Shown one piece after another: positions 303 to 13,500 of a stretch of DNA of 23,785 nt. The first letter of the stretch is position 1, and each line of letters begins with the position of its first letter. The stretch comes from a virus. The stretch covers positions 1-23,785 of the IMG/VR virus record IMGVR_UViG_3300027782_000361; one strand, 5' to 3'. A program made the position numbers and the translations under genes. The notes under the pieces were generated by a model. The model had not been told where the DNA came from. It saw only the letters and a list, made by a program, of their open reading frames with translations, and did not search any database.

Positions 303-1196
303 TTAGATTAAGAACCAATTAGAACCATTGTAAAAATAAGTAAAACTTTGATGATTGATAGTCATAATAACTGAACTATCATTCTCTACACTTGTTCCAG
401 CACCTGCCTGGACTGTTATATTGTATGTAGCAATCTTATTACCCTCGTCTTTTACGATTAACTTCTTACCATAAGAAGGAATTTGGGGTAATACAATTGT
501 TACTGGAACATTTGCATTTACACCAATATAATCGTCAACATTTGATGCCTGATAGTAAGTGGTAATACCAGAGATATTTACAATTGTTGTGCCACCAACA
601 TCATTTGGATCAACAAACTCTGCTTGATTTGTTGTGGAATTCCATTGTAAAAATTTATTATTATAAGCACCAGAATTAGTTGCGATGCCTACAATATCAT
701 CCAAGTATCTTAATCTGGTTTCTCCTCCTCCACCAACTGTTGATAGTTGTTGTTGAATACGAGAAAGGAAAGTGCTGTAATGCTTTTGTAAATCATCAAG
801 TGTTGCGAACTTTTGATCCAGTGGAGTTAATGGATCATTTTGTTGCTTAACATCACTTGGTTCGGCAAGAAGTCCTAATGATTTTTCAATCAGTTCCTCT
901 TTGGGTTCTTCCTTATGGTCTTCCAATACCTCAAGAACTTCATCCAAAGACTCTTCAATTACATCCTCAATAATTTGTTCTTGTTCCTTGGTTGTCTCTG
1001 AATACAACCATTTCTCAAAGGCTTTAACAGTTTTTTGTTCTTGTACCTTTTTCTTTTTAGTTTCCTTCTTTAGATTAGCAAATTCTCCAAAAAGAGAATC
1101 TAATCCCAAGTCTCCGACTACGGAATCAAATTCTTCTTTTTTCTTTTTCTTATCTTCTGCCAATAATTTAAAGAAATCATTCAAGTCTTGAGACAT
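303..1196 (-). CDS. Virion protein with charged helical N terminus and fibre-like beta C terminus (297 aa)
   Basis: 297 residues in three parts. Residues 1-115 are highly charged and helical (DLNDFFKLLAEDKKKKKEE, then KKETKKKK, then an acidic stretch of about 70-105), probably coiled coil. Residues about 120-155 are a helix ending in a GGGGE linker (155-159), followed by a short block RLRYLDDIVGI and KFLQWNSTTNQ. Residues 213-297 form a beta domain (YYIGVN-like DDYIGVN, PVTIVLPQIP, KKLIVKDEGN, FTYFYNGSNWFLI) of the kind found at ends of many phage fibre and head-fibre proteins. N-terminal anchoring with an exposed beta tip is inferred. The gene starts one base after the 553 aa gene's stop. 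Confidence 0.75.
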   Translation of the reverse strand: MSQDLNDFFKLLAEDKKKKKEEFDSVVGDLGLDSLFGEFANLKKETKKKKVQEQKTVKAFEKWLYSETTKEQEQIIEDVIEESLDEVLEVLEDHKEEPKEELIEKSLGLLAEPSDVKQQNDPLTPLDQKFATLDDLQKHYSTFLSRIQQQLSTVGGGGETRLRYLDDIVGIATNSGAYNNKFLQWNSTTNQAEFVDPNDVGGTTIVNISGITTYYQASNVDDYIGVNANVPVTIVLPQIPSYGKKLIVKDEGNKIATYNITVQAGAGTSVENDSSVIMTINHQSFTYFYNGSNWFLI

Positions 1197-1197
1197 A

Positions 1198-2859
1198 CTA
1201 ACAATTCCACTTTCTTAATGATTTATTGATTCTTGAATTAGGATCATTCGCAGTTTTTGCCGATGTGAGTTTCTTTTTCATTCCACTCATACGGGAACAA
1301 AAAGACTTTCTGCGATTTGCTGATTTTGATCCTTTTTTTAATTCTGATGGTTTAGTTGTAACCGCAAGTGATAGGTTTGATCCAGGATTCTCTTTGCGGT
1401 AAGAAGCAATCCCTTTTTTGTTTAGACCACCCTCAGAATTCTTTCCCTCTTTTCTTTGCCAAGCAGGTGATGCTTCTGTCATAAATTTCGCAAATGTTTT
1501 TGGAGTATATGAGTTTGCAAGTGGAAGTGATGGCCCGGAGAGTTTTCCCAAAGCAACCTTCTTTTCATTAGGATTGCTAGTTCCTGTAGCAAGATTTCTA
1601 ATTTTTGCTTGCTTCTGTGCTGCTTTATGTCCACCACCAATTTCAAAACTTAATTGTTCTGGAACGCAATTTGGAACAGTTTTTTTACCTTTTTTCTTCA
1701 TACCCTCTTGCTTATAACCATCCCAGCAATCTTCTGATTTTGTCCCCCAATTTGCGGCACCAACTTTACGGCACTTAACAAGTGCTCCAGATGCATATGC
1801 ACTAGGCCAAACATCATATCTAGACTTTACTTTACTGTAGCAGGCATCTTTTTTGCCACTACCCTTTCCCGGTTTATCCTTTACTTCTTGGATATTAATT
1901 TCTTCGGTTCTTACATTCGTTGGTTTTGCTCCACCAGATTTTTGTGGTTGATTTGGATCCAAACGATTTTTTCTAATTCTTGCTTTTTCTTCTTCTTCGG
2001 GTGAAAGATTTGCTGCCATTTTTGAACTACCACATTTTGGTGTAGAAGTTTGTCCTTCTTGACGGGCACAAGGTTCTCCTGCAAATTTTCCACCAAGTTG
2101 AACCCACCCTTTTTTTCCTGTGGATGATTTTGATTTTCCAAACCAATCACGAAGACCTTGATCACCAGACTTTGCTTCCTTTACAAGACGGTCTGCTTTG
2201 ATGATATCAATAATCTGAACAAAAGTATTACCGTTTGCATCTTCAATCGTTACATCCTCATTAACTTTACTTTCTCCACCATCAATATAATCTGCCGCAG
2301 TATCAATATAATCTGCTGCCTTTGTAATCTTTGACTGAACCCAAGCTTCAATATTACCTTCACCCTTCATTTTTTTCTTTAGTCTTCTAGCAGCATTCAT
2401 AATCGTGCTAAGTTCGGATCGAGCCATTGAATACTCGTAGTCCTTCTCCTCATTTGCGGGATGAGGTCTATTGGGATCATATTTCATTTGATTTTGAGTT
2501 AGCATTTCTTGGGGTCTTGTATACTTGCTCCACATATCTGGGCCATACTTGCAATCTTCTTGGGATTCTTCCTTTCTACAAAGACCACAATATCTCATTT
2601 CCGACTTTTGTTCCTTTACATCCTTAAACTTTTTATGTTCCCTCTTTGCATCTGCTTCCATTTTCTTTAGACGAGTATAATAGTCTGGAATTTCATCTAA
2701 ATGCTGTAATGCAATCTCAACAGCAAGTTTTTGATTTTTTGTGTGCTCGTGTTCAATAGGAGCACCCATATCAAGTTGCTTCTGAATATCGGAGACATCC
2801 ATACGATGTTTCTTTGCAATCTGCTCTACAGTTTTATATGGTTTCAGCTGCTCTTTCAT
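1198..2859 (-). CDS. Basic multi-module cysteine-containing phage protein (553 aa), function unknown
   Basis: 553 Lys-rich residues forming a chain of separate modules. Residues 1-80 resemble DUF5661 (GAPIEHEH, AVEIALQHLDEIPDYYTRL). A compact cysteine cluster CGLCRK...DC follows (C91, C94, C103). Residues 141-194 form a helical block (YSMARSEL, GNIEAWVQSKITKAADYID). Residues 235-313 hold WFGKSK...GWVQLGGKF with C264 and C276, ending DPNQPQKSGGAKP (DUF5872-like from memory). Residues 338-400 hold DACYSKVKSRYDVWPSAYAS with C340, C363, C378 and C398. Residues 465-553 hold AWQRKEGK...ANRRKSFCSRM with C521 and C553 (DUF6321-like from memory). These modules are familiar from phage and giant-virus proteins, but I know of no proven function. 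The basic charge suggests nucleic acid or head contact, by inference. The ATG is 12 bases after the gp16 stop. Confidence 0.8.
   Translation of the reverse strand: MKEQLKPYKTVEQIAKKHRMDVSDIQKQLDMGAPIEHEHTKNQKLAVEIALQHLDEIPDYYTRLKKMEADAKREHKKFKDVKEQKSEMRYCGLCRKEESQEDCKYGPDMWSKYTRPQEMLTQNQMKYDPNRPHPANEEKDYEYSMARSELSTIMNAARRLKKKMKGEGNIEAWVQSKITKAADYIDTAADYIDGGESKVNEDVTIEDANGNTFVQIIDIIKADRLVKEAKSGDQGLRDWFGKSKSSTGKKGWVQLGGKFAGEPCARQEGQTSTPKCGSSKMAANLSPEEEEKARIRKNRLDPNQPQKSGGAKPTNVRTEEINIQEVKDKPGKGSGKKDACYSKVKSRYDVWPSAYASGALVKCRKVGAANWGTKSEDCWDGYKQEGMKKKGKKTVPNCVPEQLSFEIGGGHKAAQKQAKIRNLATGTSNPNEKKVALGKLSGPSLPLANSYTPKTFAKFMTEASPAWQRKEGKNSEGGLNKKGIASYRKENPGSNLSLAVTTKPSELKKGSKSANRRKSFCSRMSGMKKKLTSAKTANDPNSRINKSLRKWNC
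2281..2319 (-). repeat. 21-bp in-frame tandem duplication (AADYIDx twice)
   Basis: Plus-strand positions 2281-2298 and 2302-2319 are identical at 17 of 18 bases and lie 21 bp apart. They encode AADYIDT followed by AADYIDG at residues 181-194 of the 553 aa protein. I recall the doubled motif in homologues, so the protein repeat is probably conserved, although the near-identity of the DNA copies is notable. Confidence 0.8.
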
Positions 2860-2871
2860 TATTCGTAAAGA

Positions 2872-3294
2872 CTAATCTTTACTATTTAGAAAACCTTGTT
2901 TGAGTATTTTTGAAAGTTCTGATGTTGACCCAACAAACAAAGCATTATTGGTCACACTGCTAGGTGATTTTACAGTATCTTCTTCGACATCTTTCAATTT
3001 CTTCTGCAAGTCAATTAACTTATCAGTTGTATCTGCAACACTCTTAATTAATTGACCGGCAACCTCATATGCTCTTGGAGAACCACCTTCTCCTGCAAGT
3101 TCCATAATTCCGTTGATTGCCTCTTGACCCTTCTCAATTAATGAATATAGATTTGCTCTTGTATATTCATAGTCTTTTCTAATATCATCGGGTTTTGATG
3201 GTACAATATCAATCTTTTCTACAGATTTCTCTACTTCAACTATACTGCTCTCGATATTGAGTGCTTTATCAATATCTTCATAATTATTGTTCAT
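2872..3294 (-). CDS. 16: Small terminase subunit gp16
   Basis: 140 residues (T4 gp16 has 164). The central region matches the T4-type small terminase: DIRKDYEYTRANLYSLIEKG near residues 37-57, then INGIMELA, PRAYEVAGQLIKSVADTTDKL near 73-94, and LQKKLKDVEED. These helices form the coiled-coil core that assembles into a ring and regulates the large terminase gp17 during headful packaging. The C terminus (SSVTNNALFVGSTSEL) also fits the family. The gene follows gp15 by six bases. gp17 does not follow directly here. Ribosome site weak. Confidence 0.92.
   Translation of the reverse strand: MNNNYEDIDKALNIESSIVEVEKSVEKIDIVPSKPDDIRKDYEYTRANLYSLIEKGQEAINGIMELAGEGGSPRAYEVAGQLIKSVADTTDKLIDLQKKLKDVEEDTVKSPSSVTNNALFVGSTSELSKILKQGFLNSKD
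2883..2890 (-). promoter_or_regulatory. Weak late-promoter-like octamer (TCTAAATA)
   Basis: The minus strand reads TCTAAATA, one mismatch from TATAAATA, 23 bases before the ATG of the 553 aa gene and inside the last codons of gp16. The spacing is suitable for a late promoter. In AT-rich DNA one-mismatch copies are expected by chance, so this is only a candidate. Confidence 0.2.
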
Positions 3295-3300
3295 AAGTCA

Positions 3301-4098
3301 TCAAATATCAGTCTGTTGTGTTGGACTATAAGTCTTGGAATCATTAAAGAACTCCCAATTCTCATTGAATCCGAAGTCATCATCTGGTACAGCATTAATA
3401 GGATCTGGAGTTACAGTATATCTCATTTCACGTTTAGCAGTTGTAGTATCAGTACTGGAATACATATCAACCTGAACCTTACGGATGAGACCGTCTGTAG
3501 TATTTGCAATAGGACCAAACAGATATGTTTTTGCCGTAAATTGTAAAGTATATATTAAGGATCTTCTTGTGGAAAAATCTCCCTCATAATCATCTTGAAA
3601 TGATACTGAGTCTAAAACAATTGGAATATCTCTCTTTTCTCCAATAGAATCAATTAGATCTACTGTTAAGTTAAATGATGGTTGAAAATATGGAAGAATT
3701 TGTTCGACAATCTGTAAGGCATCGTCATTTAATTTTGTAAGAATATTAAGTTCAAATCCAATGTTGTATGGAACAGGCATAAAAACCTTCTTTAGATTTG
3801 TTCCGTCAGATGCCTTAAAAGTTTGAGTAACTCCTGCCTTTCTTGTTGAATCATATTGAATAGAAGTCATCTCAAATGACATTCTGGGCAATGTCATTGC
3901 AATTGGTTTATTTAATTCTGGTTGCTGCTCAATTCTTGCCAAAAACTTCTGCACTGGTCCATATGCCAGTGGAACCCTCATATCACTGATTACACTATCA
4001 TTGGAATTTTGATGTTGAATGTGAATTTCGTTAAAGACTGTTCCAAAAGCAATAATTGTCTTTCTTATAATTTGATGGTAGTAATAAGTTCCTAACAT
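3301..4098 (-). CDS. 15: Tail sheath stabilizer and completion protein gp15
   Basis: 265 residues, close to T4 gp15 (272 aa). Diagnostic blocks are 'MLGTYYYHQIIRKTIIAFGTVFN' (split here by position: residues 1-22), 'VPLAYGPVQKFLARIEQ' near 43-58, 'TLPRMSFEM' near 70, 'PVPYNIGFEL' near 108 and 'RRSLIYTLQFTAKTYLFGP' near 180-198. In T4, gp15 forms a hexamer at the top of the finished tail, stabilises the contracted or extended sheath and joins the tail to the neck. The gene starts within the gp14 stop (TAATG) and is followed six bases later by gp16. No insertion modules are seen here, unlike gp14. Confidence 0.93.
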   Translation of the reverse strand: MLGTYYYHQIIRKTIIAFGTVFNEIHIQHQNSNDSVISDMRVPLAYGPVQKFLARIEQQPELNKPIAMTLPRMSFEMTSIQYDSTRKAGVTQTFKASDGTNLKKVFMPVPYNIGFELNILTKLNDDALQIVEQILPYFQPSFNLTVDLIDSIGEKRDIPIVLDSVSFQDDYEGDFSTRRSLIYTLQFTAKTYLFGPIANTTDGLIRKVQVDMYSSTDTTTAKREMRYTVTPDPINAVPDDDFGFNENWEFFNDSKTYSPTQQTDI

Positions 4099-5477
4099 TA
4101 ATAGTTACCAAATGGATTTGATTCTGAGAAATCTACAATAAGATCTGCTTCTGTTTCGATTTCATCATTTTCTTCATATTTATCATGTAATGAAGTCATA
4201 TTGTGTGTTTTAACCGAATATCTTGCCGAAGAAGCGGATCCTACAACTAGTTCTCCAGGATAGAATTGTCCATTATTGATCGATATTTCTAAAATATTAG
4301 TATCTTTATCCCAAGATTTAACTCTTGCAACAGTTCCTGATGTAGATCCAACTACTTCTTCATTAAAAATAAAATTGCCAGTGCCAGAAATAATCGGAGG
4401 AGCACCTAATGTAATTGTCGGTGCTACAGTAAATCCTGCTCCAGCATTTGAAACATATATTTTAGAAATATTTGTACCTTGAAGAGTTGCAAATGCGGAA
4501 GCTGCAATTCCAGGTCCGGTTGTTGGAGCACTGATTGAAATGGTGGGTGGATTCACGTATCCAGATCCACTATTCCCAATACTAATAACTCTTATACCAT
4601 TATATGCAGTCTGTATTCCACAGGTTGCAGCTGCTCCAGATCCACCTCCTCCACTGATCACAATTGATGGTGCAATAGAATATCCAGCACCAGCATTTGT
4701 TAAAACTATATCTCTAATAGAATAAACACCACCAACACTAGTAGTAATAGCAACAGCACTCGCATTTATACCTCCTGCCGGAGCAGTTGATATTGCAACA
4801 ATCGGAGTCGAAGTATATCCAGAACCATCATTAGTTAAATATATTTTTTGAACATATCCGGTGGATAATACAGATGATGCAGTTGCAGTAGAACCCATCG
4901 ATACCAACTCTAAAGATGTAATGTATCCCTGATCCTGTATTGTCTGATCAACTTCGTCAAGAGTTGTATCAAGAACTTCATCTTCATATTCGAAGAGTTC
5001 ACATTTTAATTCATAAACATAAGTTTTACCCAACTGGTAGAATGGTTGCTCGTGCTCGACAAATTTAATTTCAAATAGTCTTCTACCTAAAGGAAAATAA
5101 ACAATATCACCTTCTCTTGGACGAGATGCCAGTACAATCTCATCATCATCCATTGCCACTAAGAATGGTGATATGAAATCCTCAAATCTTTCTTTTGAAA
5201 CAATTAAAGTAAGTTCATCCTTTAAACTCATTCCAAACTTTGTTAAAATATCTCCAGATCCACTATATCCCTCATAGTTTGCAACATATGCTTCAAGGGC
5301 AAAATTATCATCAAATTTTGACGAGGTTACTTCTTTTATTATAGTTTCTTTTCTTACAAATTTTCTTGGAATATAAGTGACTTCAACTCCATATATTTTC
5401 AATTGCTCATTTATGAGTTCTTGAATTAATCTTTGTTCGTTTGCTGAACCTTGTAGAAAAAAGGGATTAAGTGCCAT
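4098..5477 (-). CDS. 14: Neck protein gp14 with a large repeat insertion
   Basis: 459 residues against 256 in T4 gp14. Residues 1 to about 188 match the marine gp14 core (MALNPFFLQGS, VTYIPRKF, SRPREGDIVYFPLGRRLFEI near 118-137). Residues about 430-459 (HDKYEENDEIETEADLIVDF..NPFGNY) match its usual C-terminal tail. Between them lie four GxGY/F modules (key residues at 218-221, 263-266, 304-307 and 346-349; spacing 45, 41 and 42), then a pair of FxxGExVxG-type modules at about 370-382 and 404-416. gp14 works with gp13 to close the portal neck after packaging. The insertion probably forms an exposed beta domain on the neck. This is inferred, not seen. The stop overlaps the gp15 ATG by one base. 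Confidence 0.92.
   Translation of the reverse strand: MALNPFFLQGSANEQRLIQELINEQLKIYGVEVTYIPRKFVRKETIIKEVTSSKFDDNFALEAYVANYEGYSGSGDILTKFGMSLKDELTLIVSKERFEDFISPFLVAMDDDEIVLASRPREGDIVYFPLGRRLFEIKFVEHEQPFYQLGKTYVYELKCELFEYEDEVLDTTLDEVDQTIQDQGYITSLELVSMGSTATASSVLSTGYVQKIYLTNDGSGYTSTPIVAISTAPAGGINASAVAITTSVGGVYSIRDIVLTNAGAGYSIAPSIVISGGGGSGAAATCGIQTAYNGIRVISIGNSGSGYVNPPTISISAPTTGPGIAASAFATLQGTNISKIYVSNAGAGFTVAPTITLGAPPIISGTGNFIFNEEVVGSTSGTVARVKSWDKDTNILEISINNGQFYPGELVVGSASSARYSVKTHNMTSLHDKYEENDEIETEADLIVDFSESNPFGNY
4398..4856 (-). repeat. Four tandem GxGY/F beta modules in gp14
   Basis: This segment encodes residues about 208-360 of gp14 as four diverged modules of 41-45 residues. Each has the pattern I-x-x-I-x-(L/V)-(T/S)-N-x-G-x-G-(Y/F)-x-x-x-P-x-I-x-(I/L)-S/G followed by a Gly/Ala-rich turn. 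Adjacent DNA copies are clearly diverged, so the array is not freshly amplified. Related modules occur in gp8 and in both giant proteins of the window. Confidence 0.8.
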
Positions 5478-7519: not shown

Positions 7520-10500
7520 CTTACAGCAAGTGTTCTAAGTTCTTTGATCCTTGGTGGATATGCCTGATTAGTTCCGGACATTACAATTTTAATTGTATAT
7601 CCACTAAACAAATCAAGATTGTCAGCAGTAAATTGATACTCAAGGAATTGATTATCCAAACTGGGACTTACAAAAGTATCTGGCAATCCACTATTTTTTG
7701 ATTTATCTAAAACTTTATAACCTTGGATAGTAGTATATGCCAAATTGTCATATCCGGGGAATAGTTCAAATGATTGATCAACTTCACTAGAATCTGGTCT
7801 AATTAAACTATAAAGAACTCTAAAATCAGCAGAAGAATGACGATATGCAGATAAAATAACTTTTAATGTAGTTGCCTGTTGGGACAAATTAACAGTATTT
7901 GATACATATACTGCAGCATGTGGGTCATTTAATACTGAATTAACTCTTCCATCTAATGCATAATCTGAAATTGGGTTATTTAAACGACTAGAGATAAATT
8001 CGGTAAATGTAGTATCCAAATAGATAATTGGTGATAAATTACTATCTGATGTATTTAATGTTATTCCAGTAGTGAATGATTTATTTCTGGGCAGATTGCT
8101 AAGATATTCAGTTTCGTTCTCCTTAGAGCATACAAGTCTTACTGATTTTAAAGAATTTAATGTATTTAATTGAATTGGTTCAAATCCATTGTCGAGGAAT
8201 GATACCTCATTGCCACTAACACTAGTTCCAGAAGTAGTTCTAATTATGGCAGTAGCAGAAGTAGAAGATCCTGGGGTAATAATATCATAATTTGGTACTA
8301 TTGAACTATATTGAATATTTTCAGTTGCAAGTACTTTAGAACCTCCTAGATTTGCCTCTGAAGTAAATGATAACTGAGGCATAGTTGATGATGCACCGTC
8401 AACACTTCTATTGGATCCATTTGAAGATCTATCAATTTCAATGTAATATTCATCTAGTCCAATATTAACATCACTAATATCGTGAGTTTTATTAATTCTC
8501 CTCAATGAAACTCCATTTAATTCATACTTATATACTAAACTATTGATATCATGGGGAATTACAATAGTAGAATCCATTCCTCTCCCATTAGATGCAAGTG
8601 TTAACGTACCATTCCCAACGTTATTGTATGCAATAATTTCATTCTCAATTTTTACATATCCAGTATTTGCTGCACCTACTGCAACTCCCTCAAAGGTTCC
8701 AAAATTTGCTGTGTCTCCAATACTAATGGTAGATACTTGTTGTGCAGTTAAAGTTGCAGAAAGAATAGTTGGTGACAGACTTGACTCAATATTACTTAAT
8801 GTTAATTTGTTATTTTTTGCATACATTCCGTGATTAAAATGTCCTACTTTTATAAAATTACCAGAATTTTGATTTCCAGAACTTGAAGAACTTCTAATAA
8901 AAGTACTTGCAAGGGATACCAATGTACCGGCATCATTATAATAGCTTAATCCAGCTCCAACAGTAAAGGATTCTCCCTGAACATTTGATAGGTATAATGT
9001 ATCAAGACTGCTGCCAATTGCTCCAATAGTAATTCTTGCATTTTTTCCAGTATTGCTTGATACTGTAGATGTTACTATTCCAACAACATCTCCAATAGCA
9101 TATCCATTTCCTGGATTTACTATAGTTGGTGTTCCTGTAATTGAACCACTGGTTGCAGTGATATTCAATACAAGACCAGAACCACTTCCAGTAATATTGT
9201 AGGTATCTACAGAAGTATCAGTAACATAATTACTTCCACCTGTAGTAAGTCCTACAGATGAAACTGAACTTCCAGTTCCAACAATATACCCATATACGTA
9301 ATTTTTTGATCCATCGGCAATTTTTCTGCCTTTAGACAAATTGGCAATTAGTGGTGCATTTGTTGTTGTAGTGATTCCAACTGTAATTGTTTTTGGTAAA
9401 GTTGTTAATGGATTATTGTCTAATCTTTGAACATATCCATTACTTTCATCTAATGTTGGATTGTAGAAGAAAGCGGTTCCTGTTGATGATGTAAATTGTG
9501 CTTTATAAAGTTTAAATTTAAGATCTTGGTATTGATTTGCTGTCCATATGGATCCATTTTGAGACTTAAACAAACTTCCCATAGAGAACTGTTTGGAATA
9601 AGTAACACTATCAACATCTGGAAGTGATTTGGTATTTACTGTTTTTTCACCCATAACTGCAGTCCATAATTCATATTGATCACTATTTTCTGAAATAATT
9701 ACAACTGCATATTCTCTTCCGGGTGGAAGATAAATTGGTTCACTAAAAGTAACTTTAGTTGCAGTTTCTCCATCACTGGAGACATTAACTTCATCTGGTC
9801 TCAATGTAACTGGAGTTCCAATTACAACTCTTGTTGGTGTTCCTAGTTCAACAGTTCTTATTTCAACTTTTACTGGTGCATTACCACTATCTTTACTTGC
9901 AAAGAATAAATCAACCGCAGTTAAGAATGCTCCATTAACATCATCATTTGTTGATGTTGGTGAAGGTGCTTCAACATTTCCACCAACAACAAATGATTGT
10001 GCAAGAGGGTCAACATATCTTTGAATTGTTGTTGTTGTATGAGTGTTTATTGTCGTAACTGATTGTGTTGTATTTGTTGTTAAGTTAGTTACTGTTTTCG
10101 TTGTTAAGTTAGTTGTAGTTGCAGTAACAGTGTTCTCCCACTGCTCAAGAGTTCCATCTGCATTATAATTTGTTTCTGCAGATGAAATTGAATTGCTACC
10201 AGGAAGACCCAAATCATTTGTTGAACTTGATGTCAACTTAAAGGTCTTAGTTCCTGTATTAATCCTAACAGTTGGAGTTGGATTTGCATTTGGATCTCTT
10301 AAGTAGAATGCTCCAATCAAATCTCCATAATTATCGGAGATTAGTCTCAAATCTTTCACATACGCAACTGCACCACTAGTTTGTCCGACTAATTTCATTC
10401 CAGCAACTAAATATCCAGAATATTTTCCTTGGTCTTCGTGTGATAGTGAAGATGTATCAACATTCAGAACTTTTGATGATTGACTATATGCTGATGGTAT

Positions 10501-13500
10501 GGATTCACCCTTAATATATGGATTTATTGTATATGTTGTAGATGGTGAATTAAACTTTCCATACTTATGATTTGAGGTAGCAACTCTAAATGTAATTAAA
10601 TTGCTGTTTGCATATGTTCCAACAATAGTTTCACCAACTATAAATGCACCAGAAGCACCATAATTTGCTAATGTTGAATCATTTGCAATTTCAACTAATT
10701 TTGGAATAAAATCAACACCACTATTTCCATCAAGGAATTGATAAAATTGTGTTCCTGGTTTTAAATTTGATGCAGAAAATTCAGTATTTCTGGATCTCAT
10801 ATAAGATTCATTGGATGAAGAAATTAAAACATTTCTAATAGTAGTATCAGTATTACTTACTGTGTCATAATCAATACTTTGTGTTGTATTGGATGTGGTA
10901 CTGGTAGCAGTTGATGAAGTTTGTGTATTTTCAACCCCAACTACCCTGTTATTTCCTCGACCACGTATCTCAGGAAGATTGACCGTGCTGCTACTCGTAG
11001 TTTGAATGGGGGTTAGAGTAACAAAAGCATTGCTTACTAGATTTTTCTCAAGAGTTCTTGTAGAATTTAATGTTACACTAACATTTTTATCTGGAAGTTG
11101 AACAGTTCTTACCCAAGTATCAATTTCTGGATTTAATTTAAGATCTCCACTATAAACAATAACATTAAATGGGTTCACATTCTCAACTGTTGTTGCAAAT
11201 GCTTGCTCAATCCATCCTATCGATTCATATTTTAAAGTTACGGATTTTCCTGTTTTTTGAATATTTGGATCCAACAGTTCAAAGTTTTCTGATAAATCTA
11301 AATCTTCATCATTAATTGCAATTGCTGGTGCAATTTGTGATTTTAATGAATTTCTACTGCTAATTGGTGTTAATTCATTTGCTACAGTATTAACTCTGAT
11401 ATTAGATAACTGTTTATTGATTAATGAATAGTTTTTAAAATCATCGACAAAAAATCCAGTCTTAAATCTATTCCTACCCTCAGAATCTTGAATTTGAAGA
11501 GTTTGTGTGTTTATTTCAAGTAATGATAATGAAGTAACTCTTTCTAAATTCTCAACCCTATCCTCAATTAACCCAATATCCCTCATTGTATATCTTCTAT
11601 TGTCAACCAATGAAAGAATGGCATCAGATGGGTTGTAAAGATATGGTGGCAGTTTAATTGTTGCAATTTCCATTACAGCATCATTTTTATTTGGTGCCTT
11701 TGGATCTCTTGCTGATACACCTTTTTCCAGAATAAAACTCCCAAATTTATCAAGATATAACTTATCAATTCTTGGTAAATAATACTCATATCCAATTAAA
11801 GAACTTTCATTTGCGGAAAGAATTAATTTTGGTTCAGTAGTAAAATTTCTAGAATTGAAATCAAATGGTGATGAAGTATTTGTTGAGAATATTGAGACTC
11901 TTGGTCTAAAATCTAAAGTATCGGAAGATCTTACTGATCTTGGCCCAATAGTGGGGATATCGGTTGCAAATCTATCCTGATTATAACTCAATACCGTAAA
12001 TACATCACCATTATCATTGGAGGGCACAGAATAATAATCAAATACTATTAAAAGTTGTTTAGAAGGTTCTGCTGTATTTTTATTTCTGACAATCCTGGAA
12101 TAATCGTAATATTGATTTTTTTGTGCTTTATCCAACGTATATGAATTTGTTATGTCCTTATACTTCCCAAAAGTAATTGATTCAATTTCCGTAGTTATAT
12201 TTGAATCTTTAAATGTTACAGTTTCTCCTACCAACAATCTTTCTGGATTTAAGTATACGATACCCAAAACATTTGCTGATGGTTTTGAAACAATCCTTGC
12301 AATTGCTTTACTGTTATTTCCTAATATATTTTCACCAATAATTGCATTTGTTGTTACATTGGCACTAGATGTAAATTGTACTTGATCTAATGTTGGTGCT
12401 GAAGAATCGAATGATTCATATACTGATATTACTTTTACTACATCTGGATAATTTAGTGATATTTCTTCATCTTGAACTCTTAGTCCATAATACTGATTGT
12501 ACGTAAGTCCATCACCAATTGAAGAACTAATTCCACTTCCAGATTGTGAGTATTTTGATAGTGATACTGATAAAGTTTGACTTCTATTATATTCCTTTAT
12601 TTTACTTTGAATTCCATTTTTAATTAAAGTTGTATTTACAGTAATATTGCTCTGGCTAGCGGTTAATCCGCTGATGGTTACAGTATTTCCATTAAGAGAG
12701 AATTGATCAGATGTTATTGTTCCAATTCCACCTCCTGAATAATGGACAGAGTATCTTTCCTGATCAAATGTAGCAAAAAATGAGCTAGTAATTCCAGTAA
12801 TTGCGGATAAATCAAAGGTTAATACCCCAGAAGGACTTGTAGTTTCTCCTGTTATTTGACTAGAAACTGTTAATAATGAATCTGAAAGATTTACTGAAGA
12901 AATATTGGAATCTGGAAGTTGAGCATATAGATATCCAGCACCTTCATTTCTTATAATTGCTGAACCAAGTAAAACTGTTGGTTGAATTGTACTTGAAGGT
13001 AACGCTCCATCAAATATACCAGAAACAGTATTGATGCCAGAAACAGTAATTGATAATCCATCTGCTGCAACAGAAGATACTCTATTATAAGTTTCAGTAC
13101 TAAATCCAACTCTTTGATATCTGATGATACTTCCTACCTTTACCCCAGTAAATACATTGCCTGCAGTAGCAGTGGTTACGGTTCCTCCAGAGGTGATACT
13201 TAATTGATTTAAACCATTTGGAAGTTTAAATCTTTCAAGTAAACAATCTGCATTGAAATTTACAGGAAGTCCTGATACACCAGTTCCCTGATATACGGAC
13301 TTAATATCTTCGGTGGAATATGCAGTTACAGTTCTAATGGTTCTTGCAAAATCAATTCCATTAATAATTAACTGTTCTCCAACTAAAAATGTTCCAGAGG
13401 TCTGTCTCAAACTAATTGTAGTAGATGCACCACCAGCAGAAACTGCATATCCACTAGCACCACTACTCTTACCCTTTACAAATGATGTTGCAGGTAATTC

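Follow-up and report, generated by a model that had tools for sequence, protein, structure and literature searches.

The window analysed here is a 23,785-nucleotide stretch of viral DNA in which the genes for gp13, gp14, gp15 and gp16, identified with Pfam and PHROG, lie upstream in reading direction of an open reading frame for a 553 aa protein. These neighbours identify the window as the neck and packaging block of a T4-like phage. The open reading frame runs on the minus strand from 2859 to 1198, directly after the gp16 small terminase gene (3294 to 2872), as a first-pass annotation made from the sequence had also observed. Among isolates the closest is S-SRM01, a Synechococcus phage from fresh water (Kyanoviridae), which has its homologue at the same locus, and the source is a cyanobacterial virus, a T4-like cyanophage of the Kyanoviridae type. 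The location between terS and terL is conserved for the homologues.

Among the flanking genes, the gp14-like neck protein (window 4098-5477) has a long insert, about 240 aa, whose GxGY...P repeats match tail-fibre and baseplate PHROGs as well. The gene downstream of the open reading frame (window 303-1196), a PHROG tail fibre match, combines an N-terminal half rich in Lys and Glu (EEFDSVVGDLGLDSLFGEF...) with a tail-fibre-like region behind it.

The 553 aa protein is indeed very basic, as had been claimed, with a pI of 9.6 and 109 Lys plus Arg residues versus 71 Asp plus Glu. It matches only function-less PHROG families and no NCBIfam profile, and IF2_N and other sub-threshold Pfam matches were dismissed as chance. 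Two Pfam domains score well above their cut-offs: DUF5661 (PF18905, aa 12-68, E 1e-14, 55.1 bits versus 27) and DUF6321 (PF19846, aa 472-551, E 4e-18, 66.3 bits versus 28.5). The protein is thus a member of the DUF5661/DUF6321 (T4-GC119) family. With relatives from viral contigs we delimited seven units, which follow each other in the order DUF5661-M2-M2b-M3-M4-M5-DUF6321. The features are as follows, a slash marking here and below a putative cut or a junction.

1198..2859, minus strand: whole open reading frame, ATG start, 553 aa modular protein (T4-GC119 / PHROG 727 family)
2872..3294, minus strand: context, gp16-like small terminase (PHROG 445, E 4e-55)
2614..2859, minus strand: module 1, DUF5661 (aa 1-82), invariant H18, H39 and H53
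2611..2613, minus strand: putative prohead-protease site after E83 (VKE/QKS), in low-pLDDT linker 78-88
2452..2595, minus strand: module M2 (aa 89-136), invariant C91/C94/C103/H133, candidate CCCH zinc site
2260..2451, minus strand: module M2b (aa 137-200), helical
2257..2259, minus strand: putative prohead-protease site after E201 (VNE/DVT)
2176..2256, minus strand: short linker module (aa 202-228, DVTIEDANGNTFVQIIDII...), recurring in relatives and ending in putative site VKE/AKS (E228)
1912..2175, minus strand: module M3 (aa 229-316), invariant C264/C276
1885..1887, minus strand: putative prohead-protease site after E325 (IQE/VKD)
1741..1854, minus strand: module M4 (aa 336-373), invariant C340/C363
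1657..1740, minus strand: module M5 (aa 374-401), invariant C378/C398, ending at putative site VPE/QLS (E401)
1474..1500, minus strand: capsid-targeting-like segment KTFAKFMTE (aa 454-462), putative cleavage after E462
1201..1473, minus strand: DUF6321 module (aa 463-553), invariant C521/C553, very basic, net +18

The protein has 11 cysteines, each invariant within the copies of its module. The positions listed in the first-pass annotation are right but its total of nine is too low. C91, C94 and C103 of M2 are kept together with H133 in 21 of 21 copies, the pairs of M3, M4 and M5 in 44/44, 26/26 and 29/29 copies respectively, and in DUF6321 C521 is kept in 71/71 and C553 in 70/70. DUF5661 and M2b are the sole modules without invariant cysteines.

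The AlphaFold2 model of the whole protein, derived from an alignment of full-length rows that covers M2 and M2b thinly, has a pTM of 0.28 and consists of small folded parts with low-confidence linkers between them. As modelled, the protein is beads on a string and not one fold. Predicted alone, DUF6321 is a small helical module (pLDDT 83). Searching PDB sequences with the whole protein and with the DUF6321 profile gave zero matches, and comparing both models with PDB folds gave none or weak helix matches only (best Z 3.4), which is no evidence of a new fold.

The arrangement of the modules differs among relatives, with more than a dozen orders found, and family members turned up in over 500 of the phage records searched. 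The order is DUF5661-M3-M4-M5-M2-M2b-DUF6321 in contigs L005-L008, DUF5661-M2-M2b-DUF6321 in L054, DUF5661-M3-M5-M2b-M4-M2-DUF6321 in L062 and, unlike the window, DUF5661-M3-M4-M2-M2b-M5-DUF6321 in S-SRM01; among the relatives compared, the full order of the window is complete in the window only. Several modules are also encoded by small genes of their own. DUF6321 stands alone as a protein of about 90 aa in many phages, M4 as a 70-76 aa open reading frame in L042 and L044, and DUF5661 as a protein of about 70 aa in Caulobacter phage Cr30. At least six modules occur separately, in keeping with the earlier claim of five or more. The gene encodes a chain of small, freely reshuffled, independent cysteine-bearing units. 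S-SZBM1_195, an 87 aa virion protein adjoining the small terminase, resembled a standalone module at first sight but proved unrelated.

An 18-nucleotide near-repeat at window positions 2168-2185 and 2603-2620 encodes the linker sites VKE/AKS and VKE/QKS. The repeat may mark a seam at which modules are exchanged by recombination, or it may be due to chance.

It is well supported that the orthologues are virion proteins, the data coming from relatives and not from the source phage. In S-CREM2, gp137 (490 aa, between terS and terL, with a C-terminal DUF6321 module) is in the virion mass-spectrometry table with 4 unique peptides at a low coverage of 4.1 % (PMC10665884 Table 3). In S-SCSM1, SSCSM1_29 (517 aa, M3-M4-M5-M2-DUF6321, likewise between terS and terL) is tagged 'virion protein' in its record annotation, and the same tag is carried by proteins that the paper names as detected by mass spectrometry, e.g. 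NMNAT ORF91 and ORF213 (PMC9602691). The S-SZBM1 proteins 192 and 194, from the same locus type, are missing from the 30 virion proteins detected by mass spectrometry (PMC9146016). Orthologues are thus present in two of the three cyanophage virion proteomes examined.

The segment KTFAKFMTE/ASP (aa 454-465; PKTFAKFMTEAS) immediately precedes DUF6321 and matches the N-terminus of the T4 internal proteins IPII and IPIII, MKTYQEFIAE/A (IPIII begins MKTYQEFIAEAS). In the T4 signal residues 4 and 7 direct targeting to the head core and residues 8 and 10 processing, and the protease gp21 cuts after L/I-x-E (PMC9026906). Of 72 distinct DUF6321 copies, 15 have a targeting-like core at precisely 4-5 residues ahead of the module's tryptophan, versus 0.13 expected. 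The protein's own N-terminus (MKEQLKPYKTVEQ) has no capsid-targeting sequence, the T4-like segment being internal instead. These signals of T4 type at module seams, together with the virion data, support the first-pass suggestion of a packaged internal head protein.

The protein has eight hydrophobic-x-E sites, and six of them fall in linkers (E83, E201, E228, E325, E401 and E462), which taken alone is a weak excess (P 0.03). Since the homologues are related, the P values are overstated. Only IQE325 and LDE56 among the eight are strictly L/I-x-E, the site at the last seam being MTE. DUF6321 copies without the complete targeting-like core still retain its cut-site part. Across the family, 41 of 47 fused copies have [LIMVF]xE at most 6 aa before DUF6321, compared with 11 % at positions drawn at random from these proteins and with 4 of the 26 copies that stand alone. 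Family-wide, 31.7 % of the Glu residues in linkers are part of a hydrophobic-x-E motif versus 18.6 % inside modules. The M4-M5 and M2-M2b seams, inspected for cut sites, gave no clear signal. In the major capsid proteins of cyanophages the presumed maturation sites lie where expected and read LTE/APT, LTE/AAPT and LAE/APT, and that of S-SRM01, FLSE/ASPT, is close to FMTE/ASPA of the window. S-SRM01 also encodes an S77 prohead protease (QPX48181, L106:3234-3884; Pfam E 8e-37), annotated as 'primosomal protein'. The pattern of sites suggests that a prohead protease may cleave the chain at its seams.

Related strings carry recognizable domains. S-SZBM1_194 (L086:18253-20376), between terS and terL, has a SAM lyase domain directly after TYREFIAE/G. 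A HicA-toxin domain is joined to DUF6321 across LEE/T at L061:5491-6276, and S-SM2_109 (T4-GC119) contains a DUF192 domain. In addition, a 69 aa DUF3008 protein of S-SCSM1, with the 'virion protein' tag, resembles the first segment of S-SZBM1_194. The embedded SAM lyase, HicA and DUF192 domains and the likeness to DUF3008 are more in line with a vehicle for delivered proteins than with a structural scaffold. We searched the literature on DUF6321, DUF5661 and DUF5872 and found no functional description.

A segment of this kind is also seen elsewhere in cyanophage virions. In S-CREM2 the virion enzymes, namely a SAM hydrolase/lyase (gp6), a Cas9-like nuclease (gp12), a kinase (gp14) and a cytidylyltransferase (gp154), and two small proteins have FxxF[LMF]xE at or near the N-terminus (LxxF in gp13; genes at L094:3837-5081, 7704-10313, 10310-10546 and 10579-12846, and L096:8301-9014 and 25608-26468). 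Five annotated proteins (gp6, gp13, gp14, gp136 and gp154) carry the motif at positions 3-6, and every one of them is on the virion list, which contains 52 of the 219 proteins (P 6e-4); in gp12, also a virion protein, the motif is at residue 19. The cytidylyltransferase/NMNAT virion proteins of S-SZBM1 and S-SCSM1 begin with MRFRQFIIEA and MKSFLQFLKEA, and in S-SZBM1 one of three motif-bearing proteins was detected in the virion. The authors of the S-CREM2 study left open whether the virion enzymes are true cargo (PMC10665884). The N-terminal signal that they have in common argues that several are. A literature search gave no account of capsid-targeting sequences in cyanophages.

Near the homologues we also observed a conserved protein of about 105 aa, MK[ST]F[KQ][QS]F[ILM]SES..GDFNGNLY (L104:22216-22536, L086:17312-17629 and L083:10196-10504), with a targeting-like N-terminus and a C-terminal part that resembles a module inside SSCSM1_29.

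We consider it fairly probable that the gene encodes a polyprotein of internal head cargo that the prohead protease matures and that is probably ejected into the host. The chain would be expressed late in infection and would enter the prohead core, where the prohead protease (gp21/S77 family) would cut the linkers after hydrophobic-x-E. The cuts would release several cysteine-bearing proteins, all small and most of them basic, the DUF6321 piece being the certain one if any is. The basic beads would be retained in the head with the DNA and then ejected with the genome, to act early on the host in take-over or anti-defence as T4 IPI, IPII, IPIII and Alt do. Ejection and bead function are proposed by analogy with T4 and with the embedded enzymes. 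We further propose that the reshuffling of modules from phage to phage stems from each bead folding and functioning on its own. The main gap of the cargo reading is that the protein's own N-terminus lacks a targeting signal. A wider version, which we put forward tentatively and with rather more doubt than belief, is a virion-borne effector polyprotein in which up to six or more unrelated mini-effectors are packaged whole and split by the protease in the capsid. New injected effectors would then be gained by shuffling beads between protease-site linkers, and an N-terminal F-x-x-F-[LIM]-x-E would mark the cyanophage ejected proteome generally (Cas9-like nuclease, kinase, SAM lyase, NMNAT).

Alternatively the chain may stay uncleaved as a multi-domain internal head protein, the intact basic chain binding or organising DNA and the E-rich linkers acting as flexible spacers. 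The detection of orthologues in virions is equally expected of such a protein, as are the basic character of the chain and a Glu content that is simply higher in linkers than in modules (9.1 % versus 6.5 %). Flexible linkers, however, leave unexplained why the last site keeps a fixed distance to the module and why position -2 of the last Glu is so often hydrophobic (39/44 versus 25 % of all Glu). They also do not account for the scarcity of the site in standalone DUF6321 copies or for modules that occur as separate small genes, and we regard this explanation as unlikely. A DNA-condensing role, which the first-pass annotation had also raised, is possible given the basic modules and the net +18 of DUF6321.

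That annotation had further pictured the modules as metal-binding knots, and we consider a series of zinc knots with nucleic-acid-binding activity to be improbable. Invariant cysteines in all modules except DUF5661 and M2b would suit it, and M2 has the invariant pattern CxxC-x8-C...H, a ligand pattern that supports a putative metal site in this module only. M3, M4, M5 and DUF6321 have one invariant cysteine pair each and zero invariant histidines. These are too few ligands for a zinc site of their own, making a disulphide or an inter-module or dimeric site equally likely. A four-cysteine site shared by M4 and M5 is not required since each was found without the other. A packaging accessory or terminase partner that is made late and appears in virion preparations merely as a contaminant would agree with the conserved place between terS and terL, the sole basis for such a role, and with the failure to detect the protein in S-SZBM1 virions. 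Yet the S-CREM2 virion list contains gp137 and not the small terminase (PMC10665884), the module content varies more freely than a protein devoted to a conserved motor would allow, and one podovirus has DUF6321 alone, directly after the major capsid gene. We therefore judge this role very unlikely.

Taken as head cargo, the protein resembles T4 IPI, IPII, IPIII and Alt in its KT[YF]xxF[IM]xE/A targeting and processing segment and in the presence of its relatives in virions. The T4 proteins are cut C-terminal to Glu by the S77 prohead protease, a cut that we infer from the sites here. They are single proteins with an N-terminal signal, whereas the window protein has its signal inside a long shuffled chain with several possible cut sites. 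Because the N-terminal targeting sequence is absent, we leave it outside the T4 internal-protein family. The inner-body and ejection proteins of phiKZ and SPN3US are likewise carried in the head and cleaved after the Glu of a short motif, in some cases at more than one site (PMC5694885, PMC10052503). The likeness is in the processing pattern; there only propeptides are removed, whereas the window chain would release several folded beads. The direct homologues are the T4-GC119 / PHROG 727 / DUF6321 proteins of cyanophages, with the same locus and the same modules, which are recorded only as hypothetical or 'structural' and differ in module order, even in S-SRM01. The phage SAM lyase (S-AdoMet_lyase, PF23780), which is a module in the S-SZBM1_194 string and, as S-CREM2 gp6, a virion protein with a targeting N-terminus, has no counterpart domain in the window protein.

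If the chain is cleaved cargo, its modules become candidates for the proteins with which marine and freshwater cyanophages take over the host early or counter its defences. A simple motif would then identify the phage proteins that travel in the head, and judging from its occurrence the FxxF[LMF]xE-type segment could predict the ejected proteome of cyanophages. The gene itself resembles a cassette of cargo proteins for delivery into the host cell.
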